A stretch of 7,287 nt of DNA, from assembly GCA_030528545.1 (NCBI GenBank), contig JAUMYR010000133.1, positions 1-7,287 of the forward strand, read 5' to 3'. Shown one piece after another: positions 1 through 7,052 of the stretch; within the stretch, counting starts at the first letter, position 1; every line of letters begins with the position of its first letter. This DNA comes from Propionibacteriaceae bacterium. GTDB taxonomy: Bacteria > Actinomycetota > Actinomycetes > Propionibacteriales > Propionibacteriaceae. The position numbers and the translations under genes are program-made. The notes under the pieces were generated by a model that had not been told where the DNA came from, ran no database searches, and saw only the letters and a program-made list of their open reading frames with translations.

Positions 1-259
1 ACAGCAGCCGGAGGGCATCGCCCACCTCGCGGCGCTGCGCCGCCGTCGTTCTACCAAAGGCCGGCGGATCCCACAGCGGGACCGTGGTCACGCTACGAAT
101 GTTGCCCAGGCCGGGCCAGAGATTGTCCCTCTCCAACCCGACCAGGGTGACCACATGAAACTCATGCTCGAACAGTGTCTCGACGAGTCGATGGCACCAA
201 GTGCTCACGCCGCCGGTCGTGACGGGATAAGTACCCTCATTGACCAGAGCGATCCGCAT
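1..259 (-). CDS. pelF: PelF-like glycosyltransferase, N-terminal part (cut by window edge)
   Basis: Only the first 86 codons are present; the gene continues beyond position 1. The ATG at 259 follows a good Shine-Dalgarno site (GGGAGG at 269-264, 4 nt before the ATG). The protein begins MRIALVNEGTYPV and shows EGTYPVTTGGVSTW at residues 8-21, then HRLVETL. This is the N-terminal signature of PelF-type GT4 glycosyltransferases (DUF3492 region), where E-G-[TW]-[YW]-P-x-x-x-G-G-V-S-x-W forms the first nucleotide-binding loop. Known PelF proteins are cytoplasmic and polymerise the Pel polysaccharide (GalNAc/GlcNAc-rich) from UDP-sugars, working with the membrane protein PelG. The start lies 20 bp after the stop of the deacetylase gene, so the two are very likely co-transcribed. 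Residues 22-86 are less diagnostic, and the catalytic C-terminal half is not visible. Another GT4 enzyme of exopolysaccharide synthesis is the main alternative. Confidence 0.84.
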   Translation of the reverse strand, partial: MRIALVNEGTYPVTTGGVSTWCHRLVETLFEHEFHVVTLVGLERDNLWPGLGNIRSVTTVPLWDPPAFGRTTAAQRREVGDALRLL

Positions 260-279
260 GTCACCTCCCGCTAACCGAG

Positions 280-2490
280 CTAGGCGACTGCATCTGCGGC
301 CTCCAGCACCGCAATGTCTGCTTCGTTCCTGGGCTCCAATACCACCGGAACCGGGGCTTGACGCGGGGACGGAATCTGCTCTTGCACGGGTAGGACGGGC
401 GGCCAGACGACCGATGTCGCGAACCCGGACTCAGCGGCGAGGGTGTAGGTGCGCTGTTGGCCCCGCCGGAAATCCACCCAGGCGGAGGACTCCCCGCCAT
501 AGGACTCACCGAAACGACTGCGCCCCTGGCGCGTCCCAGCCGGCATGGTTACCGGTACCGTGACCGTGTTCCCCGAGGTGTTGTGCAGCTTCACCTTCGA
601 GCCGCTCACCTTGCCCACGACTTTGCTCTTGGCTTTTGCCCACTTCGCCTGCCGCTCCAGCTGGATACCGGACTCACGCATCGTCGGATTGATTACCGGC
701 GCATTATCGACGAAGGCTTCCCGGTACTGGCTGAGGACACGATCCAGCACCGGGTAAAGAATCCCATCGGCGGCGAGATTCGACTGATGCGCGTAGTGGG
801 GACGCGGATCGTTGCTGAGCAGATGGCCGAGGGCGATCCTCGCCTCAATTGGGACAATATAAGAATCGAATCCCGCAGGCTTATCCAACGGCTTGATACA
901 GGTCATGATGTCGGGATGATGCTCACACAAACCTGAGCCGCCATCGGCTTCCGATGTATAAATCCAGTTATACTCGTCAACCGCCTGGGCCTTGGTTTCG
1001 TTATTATAGTAAATGTTCATCGGATAGCGAGGCACGGTGGTTGCCCGGCCAATCTTACGGATATCCTTTTCGCGTGAGGCGTCTGAGGCAATCCAGTCGA
1101 TTCGATCGTAGTTCAGCACTCGGGCCAGATTTGGGTTGTCGGTTTCCATCTGAGGCAACGATTTCAGACCAGAATGCTCTCCCGTGACTAGCACTCCATA
1201 GTCATAGTTTGGAAGGTTCTTGCGCAGCGCGTACCACGAGTTGGTAACGATCTCGTTGTGGATGGTGAGTCCGCTCGCATACTGGATGCGCCCTTCGGCG
1301 TCCCGGACGCACTGCCACGGCGAGACCGCCTCGTTCTGGATACAGCCCAGGTAGGGATGCGACCATGTGTGGTTGACCCAGCGCAGGTCCGACTTCCGGG
1401 CAAGCAGCGCAGCCTCCAGAGCATCAGATCCGAACTCGGCCCGGTGCCGAGCGGCACCGTTACCGTTGTAGACCATCTCAAGTTTGACCCCACTCGCCTT
1501 CTGCCAGTTCACCAGCCGATCCACATCGGAGGGAATCATCCGGCTGGTGGCCCCCGGAGCGTCCGGTGGGTAGGCGGTCAAGTCACAGCCGTCGCCAATC
1601 GTGCAGTTGCCTTCCTCGCTCCACAGCGCGTCGTTTTCGAAGACATCGTCGATGTGAACGCTGAGGTAGTTCCTGTTGAAGGTCGTCGAGATACCGCGGG
1701 TCAGCCAGCGCACCACGCCGTGAGACAAAGTACGCCAATGGTTCTGATACTTGTTGGCGGAAAAGGTCAGCACCAGGCGCTCTTGGCCCTTGTGAGAGTG
1801 AACGCCAATCAGTGAACCCTGTTCCTGGGTACCAGGGATCGGTGCCGTGAGCAGCGGGGTGAAGGAGGACTCGGCCGTCGCGGGCTCCGGGGTTGCCAGG
1901 TAGCCATAGGATTCCGAGACATCGGGCGAGATGTCGTCGAAGGACACACCGCGCAGGTAGCTGAACGCATCGGCAGCACCCGCAGGGGTCACCGAGGCCC
2001 TCATCCCGTCGACCGGACCCGTGTATCCCGTTTCGCCAGCGTAATTGAGCCCTACCCCCGGATGCGCCCAGGTGTAGGCCACCACCGTGCGCACCTTGAA
2101 CCCGGCGGCATAGGCCTCAAGGATGCCCCGCTCCTGCATAGACAGTTGGGCTGGGGCCTCATTGGGCACGACGATGCCGGAGTACTTACCATGAGCGCCT
2201 CTACGATCCACATCGACGAGGAACTCGCTCGTGATGTTCTGCCTCCCGCTCGCGGCCAGATCCACCTCGGTGTAGTGCTGCCCTTCCGCCGACAGCCGCT
2301 CCTTGATCGCTGCGGTAGATGGCGAACCATCGTCGAGCACAAGGATGTTCAACGCGACATCCGCTGGTACCGCTGCGGCGCTAGCCGGTAACGCCTGCAC
2401 CGGCATCGCCAGCACGGACGCGGCCGCCACCAAAGCCAAAAAGCGCACCCGCCTGTTGACACGCACATAGTCAAAGACGATTCTTGTCAT
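280..2490 (-). CDS. Secreted Agd3-like polysaccharide deacetylase (NodB-type fold, CE18-like)
   Basis: This 736-aa exported protein probably removes acetyl groups from an amino-sugar exopolysaccharide outside the cell. Residues 1-38 form a signal peptide: basic VRVNRRVR, hydrophobic core at 17-30, and a likely cleavage in ALPASA-AA. Residues about 45-265 form an alpha/beta domain (NILVLDDG, YSGIVVPNEA). The catalytic part begins at about 275 with SVHIDDVF (D281/D282), followed by HTWSHP (H374 and H378, the HxxxH metal pair of NodB enzymes), RYPMNIYY at about 488 and HYAHQSNL at about 565. Together these resemble fungal Agd3 more than short PgdA/IcaB enzymes. Residues about 620-690 look like a beta-rich accessory domain, and a Pro-rich tail follows. 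There is no LPXTG motif or C-terminal membrane segment, so the protein is probably released or bound to polymer. All six cysteines (296/302, 383/394, 522/531) fall in close pairs, suggesting disulfides. It is the first gene before pelF. A GTG at residue 9 is an alternative start. The fold is well supported; the exact substrate is inferred. Confidence 0.82.
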   Translation of the reverse strand: MTRIVFDYVRVNRRVRFLALVAAASVLAMPVQALPASAAAVPADVALNILVLDDGSPSTAAIKERLSAEGQHYTEVDLAASGRQNITSEFLVDVDRRGAHGKYSGIVVPNEAPAQLSMQERGILEAYAAGFKVRTVVAYTWAHPGVGLNYAGETGYTGPVDGMRASVTPAGAADAFSYLRGVSFDDISPDVSESYGYLATPEPATAESSFTPLLTAPIPGTQEQGSLIGVHSHKGQERLVLTFSANKYQNHWRTLSHGVVRWLTRGISTTFNRNYLSVHIDDVFENDALWSEEGNCTIGDGCDLTAYPPDAPGATSRMIPSDVDRLVNWQKASGVKLEMVYNGNGAARHRAEFGSDALEAALLARKSDLRWVNHTWSHPYLGCIQNEAVSPWQCVRDAEGRIQYASGLTIHNEIVTNSWYALRKNLPNYDYGVLVTGEHSGLKSLPQMETDNPNLARVLNYDRIDWIASDASREKDIRKIGRATTVPRYPMNIYYNNETKAQAVDEYNWIYTSEADGGSGLCEHHPDIMTCIKPLDKPAGFDSYIVPIEARIALGHLLSNDPRPHYAHQSNLAADGILYPVLDRVLSQYREAFVDNAPVINPTMRESGIQLERQAKWAKAKSKVVGKVSGSKVKLHNTSGNTVTVPVTMPAGTRQGRSRFGESYGGESSAWVDFRRGQQRTYTLAAESGFATSVVWPPVLPVQEQIPSPRQAPVPVVLEPRNEADIAVLEAADAVA

Positions 2491-2504
2491 CGCTCCCCCC
2501 GGAG
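2491..2504 (-). promoter_or_regulatory. Ribosome binding site of the deacetylase gene, unusually close and self-complementary
   Basis: The bases before the ATG at 2490 read CTCCGGGGGGAGCG on the minus strand. The GGAG core ends only 2 nt before the ATG, much closer than the usual 5-9 nt. The segment 2493-2504 can also pair with itself (CTCC, GGGG loop, GGAG), which would partly hide the site. The alternative GTG at 2466 has no purine-rich site in front of it, so I keep the ATG. Whether the small hairpin matters is unknown. Confidence 0.4.
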
Positions 2505-2738
2505 ATTCCCCAAGACTCGTGAAGGCCGGTTTTCCCGGCTCGGTTCTATCGGCAGTTTAGGAGGGCAACGGGCCACTTCAGGGAGTCGGCTCACACCGCC
2601 CCCATGAGCGAAGGTGACCCCCGATTCGCTAATCTGGCCCATGTTAAAGTGGCTAGTGGTGTTTCTTACGACGGAGAAGGGATCAGCGGTTTTTGGTGCC
2701 TTCGCGGCGACTCAGACAATATCTTGGACCTGTGCACT

Positions 2739-2752
2739 GTTTCGATTGAAAC
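2739..2752. repeat. 14-bp inverted repeat upstream of the deacetylase gene (possible operator)
   Basis: GTTTCGATTGAAAC has perfect 5-bp arms (GTTTC/GAAAC) around a 4-bp centre, and it sits in the less GC-rich part of the long intergenic region. Its distance from the deacetylase ATG (about 250 bp) fits an upstream regulator site or a promoter further out. A short palindrome of this length can also occur by chance. No known regulator is assigned. Confidence 0.3.
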
Positions 2753-3228
2753 CACTCAGAACACGGCGTCCACAAGGCAAGTTCGACCCTTCCCCGGACT
2801 ACCCGGCCTATTCACTCGGCCCACCCCAGAGCCGTCTTTGAACCGACCCGCCGGGCCAGAGAATACCGCGGGGCCGTTCCAGGAAATCACTTAGTGTTCC
2901 ACTCCTCTCGGCAGCCAGCCAGCGGTGTGGCCCGGGATTGAAACTTTACCGATGAGGCCATCCGGCCGCCAGGCCAATTGCGCGGCGGGCACCGGGGAGA
3001 ACTACCCATCCCAGGGGCAGCGCGGAGCCCAGGATCGTCCCAGCGGCAGCCTCGGCCACCGCACATCAGGAGGCCGCGACCCAGAGCCCTCGGGAAATCC
3101 CTGGACAGCCACCGTCGAGGCGCTAGCTCGGCCCAGGAGGCCCTCACCCCACGGGAGCGCCTGGGCAAACCATTTCGCCGACGGATATCGCCGCAGTGAC
3201 ATCGTGGCCCCACGAGCGAAGCCGAGCG

Positions 3229-3280
3229 GGTCACCACGGCCCGGCAGAGCCAGCCGCGGTTCGGCCGGGCCGTGGTCACC
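3229..3280 (-). terminator. Strong hairpin at the end of the TetR-ABC exporter operon
   Basis: The arms at 3229-3245 and 3264-3280 are complementary over 17 bases with one mismatch (CACGGCCCGGC core plus GGTCAC against GGTGAC), around an 18-base loop. The hairpin starts 9 nt after the permease stop codon, where a terminator is expected. No T-tract follows on the minus strand, which is common for hairpin terminators in high-GC actinobacteria. A second small self-complementary segment (TCGTGG-CC-CCACGA, 3202-3215) lies just beyond and may help. It could instead mainly protect the mRNA 3' end. Confidence 0.68.
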
Positions 3281-3289
3281 GCCCAAGGC

Positions 3290-4894
3290 TCAGCTGTCGG
3301 GGATGTCCCGCCGCCGGTAGCCTGCCCATCCCAGGAGGATCAGGCCGACGGCGGCGAGCGTCTGAATCAGCACCGGGGGCCAGGACATGTCTTCCCCAGG
3401 CAGTTGTGGCAGATAGCCCCAAGGGCTCATCTCGACCAGCCATCCCGGCAGCGAAAACAGCGGTCCGATCCAGACCGCGACCACCGACCAGCACAGGACC
3501 AGCCAGGCCACGGGCATCCACCGCGGTGCCCAGCCAATCAGGCTAGTCACGAGCCCGACGATGAGGACCACACCGGCGTAGAGCACCCCCGTTGCGGCGA
3601 GGCTGTTCCAAATCTCGGACATCTTCCCGGAGCGCAGCGCTTCGGGAAGGGCCAACAGCACCCCAGCCCCAAGGAAGCCGATGCCGGAGGCGATCAGGGA
3701 CAGCGCCACATGACCACCCAGGAACCGGGCGCGCGGCAGAGCCGTCGACAGCAACAGTTCGAGGCGGCCTTGGGATTCCTCCAAGCGCGCGCGGGAAAGC
3801 AGTTGCGCCGCGAAGATGGCGACCACCACTGCCATCAACCCCCTCATCGAGATCAGGTAGGCCTCCCGAAGCTGCTGTGAGCCACCGCCGAGGAGGCGCA
3901 TCATCTCCACGAAACGGGGGTTCTCGGCCAAGACCTGCTCCATCATTCCGGCAAGGTAGCCGAGTCCCAGTGCGGAGACGCCGAGTCCGGCTAGCCATCC
4001 GATGATTCCCAGGCGTTGCAGGCGCCACGCCAGCCCTAGTCCATCGCTCATCCAGGGCCTGGCTGTGGCGGGCCCACCCCGGGCGGGCATCAGCCCGGTG
4101 CCGTGGTCGCGCCGGCCTTCCAGCAGGAAAGCTAACCCGGCAAGGACCAGAGTCAGCCCGGCAGGTAGGACGAGCACCTCCCACCGCTCATCCGCGTAGG
4201 GCCGCACCAGCGCCGCCCATTGCAACGGTACGGCCCATTGCAACGGCTGGACGAAGGACTGAGCGCCCATGCCATCTATCAGCGCCCGGGCGAGGAAGGA
4301 ACCTCCCAGAAAGATCCCGAGCGTCCATGCCCGCACGGTGCGCGCACTCTCGAAGACCTGACACAAGACAGCTGCCACACCGGCATATACCGCACCGGTC
4401 AGCCCAATCCCCAGGCCCGCCGCCACGGACCCGGAGACGGCCTCGCCTAAGGCCACCATTGAGACCGCGACGAGTAGGGCCAGCGCGGCACAGGCCAGCA
4501 GTGCGAGTACGAGCCCGGCCGTGAGCGGAGCACGCCGGGCCAGAGCACCGGCCCGGATCAGCTCGCAGCGTCCCGCCTCTTCATCGGCCCTCGTTGCTCG
4601 CACGACGCCGAGCCCAGCCATCATCGCGGCTCCCACCGCGATGAAAATCCCGACCCGCCAGAACGTAAATCCACCCGGGCTCAGCAGATCGAACGGGGGT
4701 CCAAACAGCGCCCTCATCGTGGGATTATCCGCGAGCAGGTTCAGCATGATCTCGGGGTGCGGACCGGACCAGACGATCCGGTCGTATTGCTGCACCGTCA
4801 GCGGCATGAGCCACACCAGGCCCAGGAGCCACCATAGATAGAAAGCCCGGCTGCGTCGCCAGGCTAGGCCGAAAACAACGCCGAAACCGGTCAT
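3290..4894 (-). CDS. ABC-2 type exporter permease, TnrB3/COG3559-like, with duplicated halves
   Basis: This 534-aa integral membrane protein has about twelve hydrophobic segments, two sets of six around a polar linker at about 258-285. It is expected to form the channel of an efflux pump driven by the ATPase encoded just upstream. Length and motifs match the 'putative exporter of polyketide antibiotics' family, tied to tetronasin resistance by its named member. The halves look like an ancient tandem duplication: GLAWRRSR (9-16) matches GLAWRLQR (287-294), LLADNP (53-58) matches VLAENP (321-326), and [12 protein letters not shown] (101-112) matches [14 protein letters not shown] (367-380). The conserved E-E-x-x-G-R-x-E-L loop probably contacts the ATPase. 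The ATG overlaps the ATPase stop by 4 nt (ATGA), implying translational coupling, with only a weak GGGG before it. The transported compound cannot be read from sequence; an antimicrobial, a lipid or a self-made metabolite are all possible. Confidence 0.87.
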
Positions 4895-5769
4895 GTCCCC
4901 GCCCTGCTGTAATGGGAAACGAATAGCTCTTCGAGGGATGGCGGCGCGCTCGTCAGCGAACGGATGCCTGATGAGGCCAGCAGTTCCATCACTGCGGGCA
5001 TCGCCTCGGCGGCAACCGACAACTCGATCCGGTTACCGGCCACGGAAACCTCGCTCACTCCCGCAACCCTCGATAGGTCGGGAACGGACTCTAACTCCGC
5101 CGCCACCCGGGTGTGGTGCAGGTGACGGAGCTCTTCGAGGCTCCCGGTTTCGACGATCCGGCCCGCCTTGATGATCGATACGTGGTCGCACAGCGCCTCG
5201 ACCTCGCTCAGGATGTGGGAGCTCAGCAGCACCGTGCGATCGCGCTCGCTTCTGATGCACTCCGCGAAGGTGCGTTCCATGAGCGGGTCGAGGCCCGAGG
5301 TCGGCTCGTCGAGCAACAGCAACTCGACATCCGCGGCCAGAGCAGCGATCAGCGCGACCTTCTGCCGATTTCCCTTCGAATAGGAGCGCCCCTTCTTGCG
5401 CGGGTCGAGATCGAAGCGTTCGATCAGCTCGTCTCTTCTGGTCCGGTCGATCCCTCCCCTGGCACCCCCGATGATGTCGATGGCCTCACCCCCAGTCAGG
5501 TTGGGCCATAGACTGACGTCGCCGGGAACGTAGGCGAGGCGCCGATGCAGGCTGGGGCCATCGGCCCAGGGGTCGCCGCCGAGCAGGCTCGCCGTGCCGG
5601 CATCCGCGCGGAGCAGGCCGAGCAGCACCCGGATCGTGGTGGATTTGCCAGCTCCATTGGGGCCGAGGAAGCCGTGTATCTGCCCCTGCCCGACCGTGAG
5701 ATCCAGCCCGTCGAGGGCGCGCGTTCGCCCGAAGTTCTTGATGAGCCCTCTCACCTCGATCGCTGCCAT
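4891..5769 (-). CDS. ABC transporter ATP-binding protein, drug-export type (TnrB2-like)
   Basis: This 292-aa cytoplasmic nucleotide-binding subunit should hydrolyse ATP to drive the adjacent permease. Visible motifs are Walker [10 protein letters not shown] (36-44), Walker B LLLLDEP (150-156) with catalytic E155, the D-loop SGLD and the H-loop histidine H185 in LLSSH. Two motifs depart from the textbook. The Q-loop position reads YVPGDV (80-85) without glutamine, and the signature is SYSKGNRQK (129-137) instead of LSGGQ. As far as I recall both are usual in this drug-export subfamily, so they support the assignment and do not indicate decay. Residues about 220-285 form the C-terminal extension ending in [10 protein letters not shown], typical of DrrA-like ATPases. 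The start has an excellent site (GGAGGA, 7 nt before the ATG) that overlaps the TetR stop; only 3 nt separate the genes. The permease gene overlaps its stop by 4 nt. Function as an exporter ATPase is near certain; the substrate is unknown. Confidence 0.93.
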
Positions 5770-5772
5770 GAT

Positions 5773-6381
5773 TCATTCCTCCGTGACGCTGAAGGCATCC
5801 TCAGCCATGATGCCGCCAGTGAATATCTCCAAACTGACCCGCGCATAGCGGGCCTGGACCTGCGGGTCCATGAGGTCGGTCCCGCCGAGATGGCGCGCGA
5901 CCTGGTCGGCGAGGAGCAACACCCCAACTCCGTAGGCGACCAGCAGCGCCGCCCGGCCTTCCTCGTCCTGGCTCGGCGTCAGCCTCCCGGCTTTCACGCC
6001 CTCGCGGCTCAGGTCGCGGGTGAGCGATGCCAGAGCGTCGAAGACCGAATCGGCGATGGGCCCACCGTCTCGCAGCGCGCGGGTCAGATAGGCCAGTATC
6101 GGGGCGAGGCTGGGACGCTCGGCGACGTAACGCCGCAGTTCCGGCAGTGAGCCTGAGGTCACGACCAGCATCTTCTCCCGGAAGATGTAGTCCAGCACCC
6201 ATTCGTCGCAGGCCCTACGGAGCCCTTCCCTACTGCCGAAGTGGTGGTTGATGAGTCCGAGAGACACCCCGGCCCGCTGGGCGATCTGGCGCATGGTCGT
6301 AGCGCCGAAACCCTGCTGCCCGAAGAGCTCGAGCGCAGCCTGGCGGATCCGAGCCGACGCGGCCAGGTCAGTTGACCTCAC
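5773..6381 (-). CDS. TetR-family transcriptional repressor of the adjacent ABC exporter
   Basis: A 202-aa regulator with the classic TetR N-terminal helix-turn-helix: RIRQAALELFGQQGFGATTM (11-30), then QIAQRAGVSLGLINHHFGSR (32-51). The first half binds DNA as a dimer. The rest (about 65-202) is the divergent ligand-binding domain, largely helical, with a hydrophobic stretch ALLVAYGVGVLLLADQ near the dimer interface. I chose the GTG at 6381 because it puts the usual ten or so residues before helix 1. The open frame continues upstream to an ATG at 6552 inside the methyltransferase gene, but that would add 57 Arg/Pro-rich residues absent from the family. No ribosome site lies at the right distance from the GTG; instead a -10-like element ends 7 nt before it. 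It lies 3 nt before the ATPase gene, so it probably represses its own three-gene operon until the exporter's substrate binds. The ligand is unknown. Confidence 0.92.
   Translation of the reverse strand: MRSTDLAASARIRQAALELFGQQGFGATTMRQIAQRAGVSLGLINHHFGSREGLRRACDEWVLDYIFREKMLVVTSGSLPELRRYVAERPSLAPILAYLTRALRDGGPIADSVFDALASLTRDLSREGVKAGRLTPSQDEEGRAALLVAYGVGVLLLADQVARHLGGTDLMDPQVQARYARVSLEIFTGGIMAEDAFSVTEE
6365..6378. promoter_or_regulatory. Candidate TetR operator: perfect palindrome in the first codons of the repressor gene
   Basis: AGGTCAGTTGACCT has perfect 6-bp arms (AGGTCA/TGACCT) with a 2-bp centre. It spans codons 2-6 of the repressor gene, at about +4 to +17 if transcription begins at the GTG. 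TetR-family repressors commonly bind such palindromes over their own promoter, so autoregulation is a reasonable inference. Palindromic codons by chance are the alternative. Just upstream, TGAACG occurs twice in the same direction exactly 20 bp apart (6406-6401 and 6386-6381). Confidence 0.45.
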
Positions 6382-6396
6382 GTTCAATATCTTATA
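6382..6396 (-). promoter_or_regulatory. Candidate -10 element for leaderless transcription of the TetR operon
   Basis: The minus strand reads TATAAGATATTGAAC directly before the GTG. TAAGAT (6394-6389) fits the actinobacterial TAnnnT -10 consensus and ends 7 nt before the G of GTG, the distance expected if the start codon itself is the transcription start. The absence of a correctly spaced Shine-Dalgarno site agrees with a leaderless message; the nearest GGAGGA is about 26 nt upstream. No good -35 hexamer is visible, which is frequent at such promoters. The position inside the 62-bp gap after the methyltransferase gene also fits. Confidence 0.5.
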
Positions 6397-6443
6397 CGAG
6401 CGTTCAGTCCTCCGCGGCGTTTCTGCCAAGGTTGGAGCCGGAT

Positions 6444-7052
6444 TCAGTTCAGCTGGCCGAGCACTTGGACCACGCTGCACAGCCCTTGATGCGCCATGCC
6501 CTCGAAGATTCTGCGCTCGTTCAGGCGCACGTCGAGGCGCCAGCCCGGCCACTCAGCGAGTACCCGCTCCCTGGTCATCAGCACCGATTCGTCATCTGGC
6601 CCGCCGGAGCTGAGCGACAGCTGGCCCGGCGTGAACTCCTCCATTAGCAACAGCCCCCTCACGCCCATGCGGGGCGTCAGCGCGTGGGCGATCAGCCGCC
6701 GCATGGGCCCAGGCAGGTGCGGGAAGATCACCACCAGCGCGTCCCAGGGACCCGCCGCGGCATCGGAGTTCACCCATTCGGCGAGGTCACCCAGCTGCGC
6801 GTCAATCTCTACGCCCCTCTCGGCGGCGAGCGCGAGAGCCTTGTCCACTCCGGCCCCAGACCAGTCGACGCTGGTCACGCGATGACCCTGCCCAGCCAGC
6901 CAGACCCCATTACGCCCCTCCCCATCGGCCAGACACAGGACCCGGGAAGACGGACGCAGCAACAGCGCCTGCTGCTTCAGGAAATCATTGGGCCGGTAGC
7001 CGTAGACATAGTTCGGGTGGGAATACCGCTGATTCCAATACTCGATGCTCAC
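6444..7052 (-). CDS. Class I SAM-dependent methyltransferase
   Basis: A 202-aa cytoplasmic enzyme with the Rossmann-like methyltransferase fold. The start region WNQRYSHPNYVYGYRPNDFL (6-25) is typical of small TehB/thiopurine-methyltransferase-like proteins. Motif I is VLCLADGEGRNGVWLA (38-53), the S-adenosylmethionine-binding glycine loop, in the distinctive 'LADGEGRN' form of one COG0500 subgroup. D63 in SVDWS is the acidic residue expected to bind the ribose hydroxyls, and LGDLAEW (87-93) gives the adenine-side acid. The C-terminal half has the usual strands (ALVVIFPH, GLLLMEEF, ending near LCSVVQVLG). Translation begins at a GTG that overlaps the stop of the preceding gene by 4 nt (GTGA), so the two are translationally coupled. 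A 62-bp gap separates it from the TetR operon. The methyl acceptor cannot be told; small thiol or metalloid compounds are known for relatives, but that is only a suggestion. Confidence 0.86.
   Translation of the reverse strand: MSIEYWNQRYSHPNYVYGYRPNDFLKQQALLLRPSSRVLCLADGEGRNGVWLAGQGHRVTSVDWSGAGVDKALALAAERGVEIDAQLGDLAEWVNSDAAAGPWDALVVIFPHLPGPMRRLIAHALTPRMGVRGLLLMEEFTPGQLSLSSGGPDDESVLMTRERVLAEWPGWRLDVRLNERRIFEGMAHQGLCSVVQVLGQLN

Follow-up and report, generated by a model that had tools for sequence, protein, structure and literature searches.

Does a carbohydrate deacetylase gene followed by a PelF-type glycosyltransferase gene mark a Pel operon, or an operon of another kind? The question arises from 7,287 nucleotides of a Propionibacteriaceae bacterium (the window; GenBank assembly GCA_030528545.1, contig JAUMYR010000133.1), in which an agd3-like gene (280..2490, minus strand; 736 codons, TAG stop) encodes a CE18-type carbohydrate deacetylase and is followed by the 5' portion of a gene for a PelF-type GT4 glycosyltransferase (2..259, minus strand; 86 codons, ATG start, cut by the window edge). 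Gene order, the relationship to known families, the conservation of catalytic residues, a three-domain fold, and neighbors that recur in relatives lead us to read the window as probably the head of an exopolysaccharide operon like that for fungal galactosaminogalactan (GAG).

The 736-amino-acid (aa) protein has a CBM87-like N-terminal domain, a central deacetylase barrel, and a C-terminal beta domain and is probably secreted (N-terminus judged by eye). Its three deacetylase motifs were all located in this frame, at residues 277 to 282 (SVHIDD), 374 to 379 (HTWSHP), and 565 to 569 (HYAHQ). In a profile alignment, CM1 D281/D282 (1645..1650, minus strand, as for the following sites) pairs with Agd3 D377/D378, CM2 H374...H378 (1357..1371) with H510/H514, CM3 R488 (1027..1029) with R613, and CM4 H568 (787..789) with H668; each is invariant in 74 of 74 sequences. 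A 34-sequence profile reached Agd3 in the PDB (E = 6.8e-7), and a search with the structure prediction, whose mean pLDDT was 91.4, ranked Agd3 first (E = 8.6e-30), in a full-length match that included the extra domains and was better than those to other deacetylases. The N-terminal Agd3-type binding domain is present (the profile covers Agd3 chain 25-262, and the structural alignment runs from model residue 42). Both searches uphold the Agd3-like assignment of the original prediction, which had been made from the sequence alone.

A 20-base spacer with a ribosome-binding-site-like GGGAGG (260..279, minus strand) separates the two genes, as that prediction had placed them. The GT4 frame, read from 259 down to 2, begins MRIALVNEGTYPVTTGGVSTW. 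Its 86-aa product matched Pfam DUF3492 (63.6 bits; cut-off, 23.3; E = 3.2e-17), an N-terminal domain also present in two full-length PelF relatives, and NCBIfam PelF (28.5 bits; E = 8e-7), where at most 86 of 489 positions were available toward a full-length cut-off of 100, which two full-length relatives passed. The full-length GT4 of related locus L001 is 45 to 55% identical to four agd3-linked GT4 proteins versus 24 to 28% to two canonical PelF proteins; the window fragment showed 37 to 54% over 59 to 91 columns and 36 to 44% over 39 to 44 columns, respectively. The GT4 tree contained only two canonical PelF proteins, omitted L078 (too short), and placed the Thermus row on a long branch.

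Related loci were collected with an alignment-based scan of genome contigs, which gave 496 related stretches (best 80 kept, all actinobacterial); a scan of the same contigs with the window protein alone found no relative. Some strains are listed twice among the loci (e.g., L010 and L027, L008 and L052). A protein search returned 1249 relatives, those bearing a name being mostly "hypothetical protein"; among them, a protein from a Propionibacteriaceae metagenome-assembled genome (Q3997_02905, on a 44-kb contig) shows 80% identity. Phage records gave no match. Because simple open reading frame (ORF) calling took wrong frames in places, neighbors were counted with tblastn and profiles, the membrane-protein profile being built from 29 of these loci. 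The co-occurrence of Agd3-like and PelF genes in Actinobacteria, which the original prediction had raised, was borne out: a PelF-type gene lies downstream on the same strand in 72 of the 76 loci (of 80) with at least 1.4 kb downstream. Where at least 8 kb was available (65 loci), PelF was found in 61, a membrane protein in 61, spherulin-4 in 55, and glycoside hydrolase GH114 in 48, with the transporter-fold membrane protein in all 61 of these long loci with PelF. A sugar-nucleotide trio (two NAD-dependent epimerase/dehydratase-family proteins and a nucleotidyltransferase; families from L007) was present in 30/65. Outside Streptomyces, PelF was found in 13 of 13 loci, one of them (L078) with only a partial alignment at +1040. 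Streptomyces loci (L005 and others like it) fall into two types: short ones adjoin sucB/lpd-like genes (assigned by eye), and longer ones include the sugar-nucleotide trio.

Plasmids carry versions of the set, and the neighbor of agd3 bears the annotation pelF in all three of the examined plasmid records that contain such a gene. The order in Kocuria rosea is agd3-pelF-membrane-spherulin4-GH114; on this mobilizable plasmid (L084, NZ_CP126484.1, 5702-14770), the set is flanked by two opposite-orientation transposase genes with the same protein accession, an arrangement like that of a composite transposon. On the Deinococcus aquaticus plasmid, pelF and the gene for a hypothetical (membrane) protein precede genes for a LegB-like dehydratase, a nucleotidyltransferase, and an oxidoreductase, which are followed by agd3, another hypothetical gene, and GH114. 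On that of Thermus brockianus, agd3, pelF, and the membrane-protein gene are consecutive, and GH114 is encoded close by on the opposite strand. Within the Propioniciclava soli family, the agd3-like gene was found in 3 of 198 genomes (two with stop codons within the match) and is therefore patchy. L088 and L089, from genomes of this family, are distant homologues (41 to 43% identity) whose matches are reported to contain stop codons.

The original prediction had read the pair of genes as a Pel-like system with an Agd3-like enzyme in the role of PelA. Such a system would be a true pelDEADAFG-type operon in which an Agd3-type enzyme stands in for PelA or PelADA. A PelF-type GT4 does adjoin a deacetylase of the type acting on N-acetylgalactosamine (GalNAc) polymers, Pel and GAG are both GalNAc rich and partly deacetylated (as set out in part of PMC7229062), and the short GT4 fragment is not clearly separate from canonical PelF; the full-length GT4 of L001, however, is nearer to agd3-linked proteins, and in the relatives searched the other Pel genes were not found where a Pel operon would place them. 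Searches of 14 relatives' genomes found no PelG match beside agd3 and none at all in 11; there were three partial matches, one above the cut-off; their open frames, 1311 to 1346 aa long, are by coordinates more than 600 kb distant from agd3 or sit on a different contig. The PelG family was found on none of three agd3 plasmids and on both canonical pel control plasmids. DUF2194 and PelD were each absent from eight of eight relatives' genomes, PelD being matched on one of the two control plasmids. DUF2194, which its position within a pel operon suggests is PelADA, did not match the window protein at E 0.1, and PelADA was not among the 50 structure-comparison matches listed for that protein, an absence that rules nothing out. 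The downstream membrane protein has a predicted MATE/MOP-like fold, and its family had no Pfam match (HMMER filters drop most weak matches). A profile comparison gave no alignment with PelG (probability, 0.04%), using a shallow PelG profile (14 rows) and no positive control. As an identity for the membrane partner, PelG was rejected on sequence by the family search and the profile comparison, within the limits just given. PelG belongs to the same superfamily as MATE/MOP, so a very remote link may exist. Among the papers listed by searches of open-licence PMC, none was seen to name this partner as a transporter-fold family. We therefore consider a true Pel operon unlikely: the Agd3-type enzyme and the PelF-type GT4 of the original prediction stand, while the neighbors in relatives are those of the GAG cluster.

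Another alternative is an enzyme acting on cell wall or other N-acetylated glycans (peptidoglycan, chitin, or heparosan-like) beside a GT4 that makes a different polymer. The match to Agd3 is stronger and longer and spans extra domains, and spherulin-4 and GH114 neighbors recur, galactosaminidases being known in GH114 and GH135 (Sph3 family), according to part of PMC12054363; this account has a low probability in our view. An uptake or attack set, used to alter and break down GalNAc polymers made by others, e.g., fungi, would explain a deacetylase and two hydrolase families within one operon, but the joint presence of the GT4 and the transporter-fold protein in every long PelF locus fits synthesis and makes such a set highly improbable.

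The preferred GAG-like operon can be compared with systems described in several papers. In the study of Bamford et al. 2020 (PMC7229062), Agd3 homologues were identified in 45 bacterial species, and 30 of the 35 placed in the tree were located within or close to operons encoding carbohydrate-active enzymes. Every operon identified contained a glycosyltransferase gene together with one for a multi-spanning membrane protein; GH114 was highly consistent, spherulin-4 occurred in some Actinobacteria, and Pel was compared with GAG. The window protein shares the three-domain fold and aligned CM1 to CM4 of Agd3 and its bacterial homologues, at about 20% identity to Agd3, and its relatives share this operon content; no mention of this particular sequence was seen there. 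The link between bacteria and fungi through a shared enzyme type, proposed in the original prediction, agrees with the enzyme falling with Agd3 and was already in print there. The fungal GAG cluster comprises uge3, gtb3, agd3, ega3, and sph3 (PMC4817252); relatives have agd3, a glycosyltransferase, GH114 (ega3-like), and spherulin-4 (sph3-like). Unlike that cluster, they pair the glycosyltransferase with a separate membrane protein, in place of the transmembrane Gtb3 (taken by description), and the minimal loci examined have no uge3-like gene, the sugar-nucleotide trio being present in 30 of 65 loci. With the Gram-positive Pel operon pelDEADAFG (PMC7112168), they share a PelF-type GT4, a putative GalNAc-polymer deacetylase, and a transporter-type membrane protein; they differ in that neither PelD nor DUF2194 was found in 8 relatives' genomes nor PelG next to agd3 in 14, and in having an Agd3-type enzyme instead of PelADA. 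The PelADA of Bacillus cereus was assigned to CE26/CBM114, and its three domains are arranged much as in Agd3 (PMC13254593). The window protein is also remotely similar to human heparan sulfate N-deacetylase NDST1, clearly so in fold but no more than suggestively in sequence; an Agd3-NDST1 resemblance is already published (PMC10864358). Unlike NDST1, an N-deacetylase/N-sulfotransferase, it had no sulfotransferase match in a protein-family search, and a different substrate is expected.

Several observations weigh against a GAG-like operon. The window ends inside pelF and shows agd3 and the glycosyltransferase only, leaving the downstream genes of the source operon unseen; the operon would continue as in relatives. 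Where Agd3 has M666, whose change to alanine abolished adhesion (PMC7229062), the window protein has Y566 (of 74 sequences, 61 have Y and 13 have F at this site). Family models supported the CE18/CBM87 assignment only in part: the window protein scored 19 bits against Pfam Agd3_CE (E = 7.8e-4; cut-off, 27.6), which 20 of the 34 aligned sequences matched at E 0.01 or better, and had no CBM87 match, found in 10 of the 34, whereas profile and structure reach Agd3. As it lies below the Pfam gathering score, it is named Agd3-like on predicted structure and motifs and is not a Pfam-certified member. The survey is biased, with 67 of the 80 kept loci from Streptomyces. At 4 of 65 loci (L009, L029, L069, and L079), agd3 has no PelF downstream, these copies possibly being remnants or enzymes for polymers made elsewhere, and a Burkholderia stagnalis copy has no such neighbors; for these reasons, the Agd3-like enzyme may act alone in some strains.

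In the mechanism we propose, the cytoplasmic PelF-type GT4 would polymerize UDP-GalNAc, perhaps with another sugar, and a MATE/MOP-fold membrane protein, presumably encoded next and beyond the window, would export the chain. The Agd3-type enzyme would be secreted and strip N-acetyl groups, with a divalent metal on D282, H374, and H378, D281 as the base, and H568 as the acid. The charged polymer could then adhere to cells and be trimmed or freed by the spherulin-4 and GH114 enzymes. More speculatively, and with less than even confidence, Actinobacteria, Deinococcus, and Thermus might share a reduced, Pel-distinct machine for cationic galactosamine polymers (PelF-type polymerase, MATE/MOP-fold exporter replacing PelG, and CE18 deacetylase, without PelD or cyclic di-GMP control), perhaps similar to what gave rise to the fungal GAG cluster; transfer as the source of that cluster was already proposed in earlier papers.

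Upstream of agd3 and on the same strand lies an ABC transporter pair (3290-5769, minus strand; genes overlapping by 4 bases). The ATPase is nearest to DrrA-type models, and the permease-like protein (534 aa) matched nothing in Pfam or NCBIfam at E 0.1. An inverted repeat just after the permease stop (3229-3280, minus strand; 23 nt, 87% complementary, 6-nt loop) is possibly a terminator, though absent from the terminator-scan list. TetR regulator and methyltransferase ORFs (5773-7052) overlap by 109 bases in different frames, so the true TetR start may lie downstream of the one called at 6552. Because L001 has histidine kinases at this place and the inverted repeat follows the permease stop, the transporter, TetR, and methyltransferase genes were rejected by judgment as part of the operon. 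A scan of 2400-3400 found no sigma-70-like promoter and two terminator-like sites inside the agd3 start, near chance (shuffle mean, 0.9), and Rfam had no match in the window.

The locus is genuine and well conserved, and most of what it shows has been described before; it adds one more member to a known kind of bacterial slime-polymer operon. Agd3-type genes are common, as the numbers of related stretches and protein relatives attest, and their neighbor is annotated pelF on three plasmids, yet PelG was not found on those plasmids. The transporter-fold partner is a concrete target for studying PelG-free export of such polymers, and the identity of the polymer would show what coats or clumps the cells of many Streptomyces and related bacteria.
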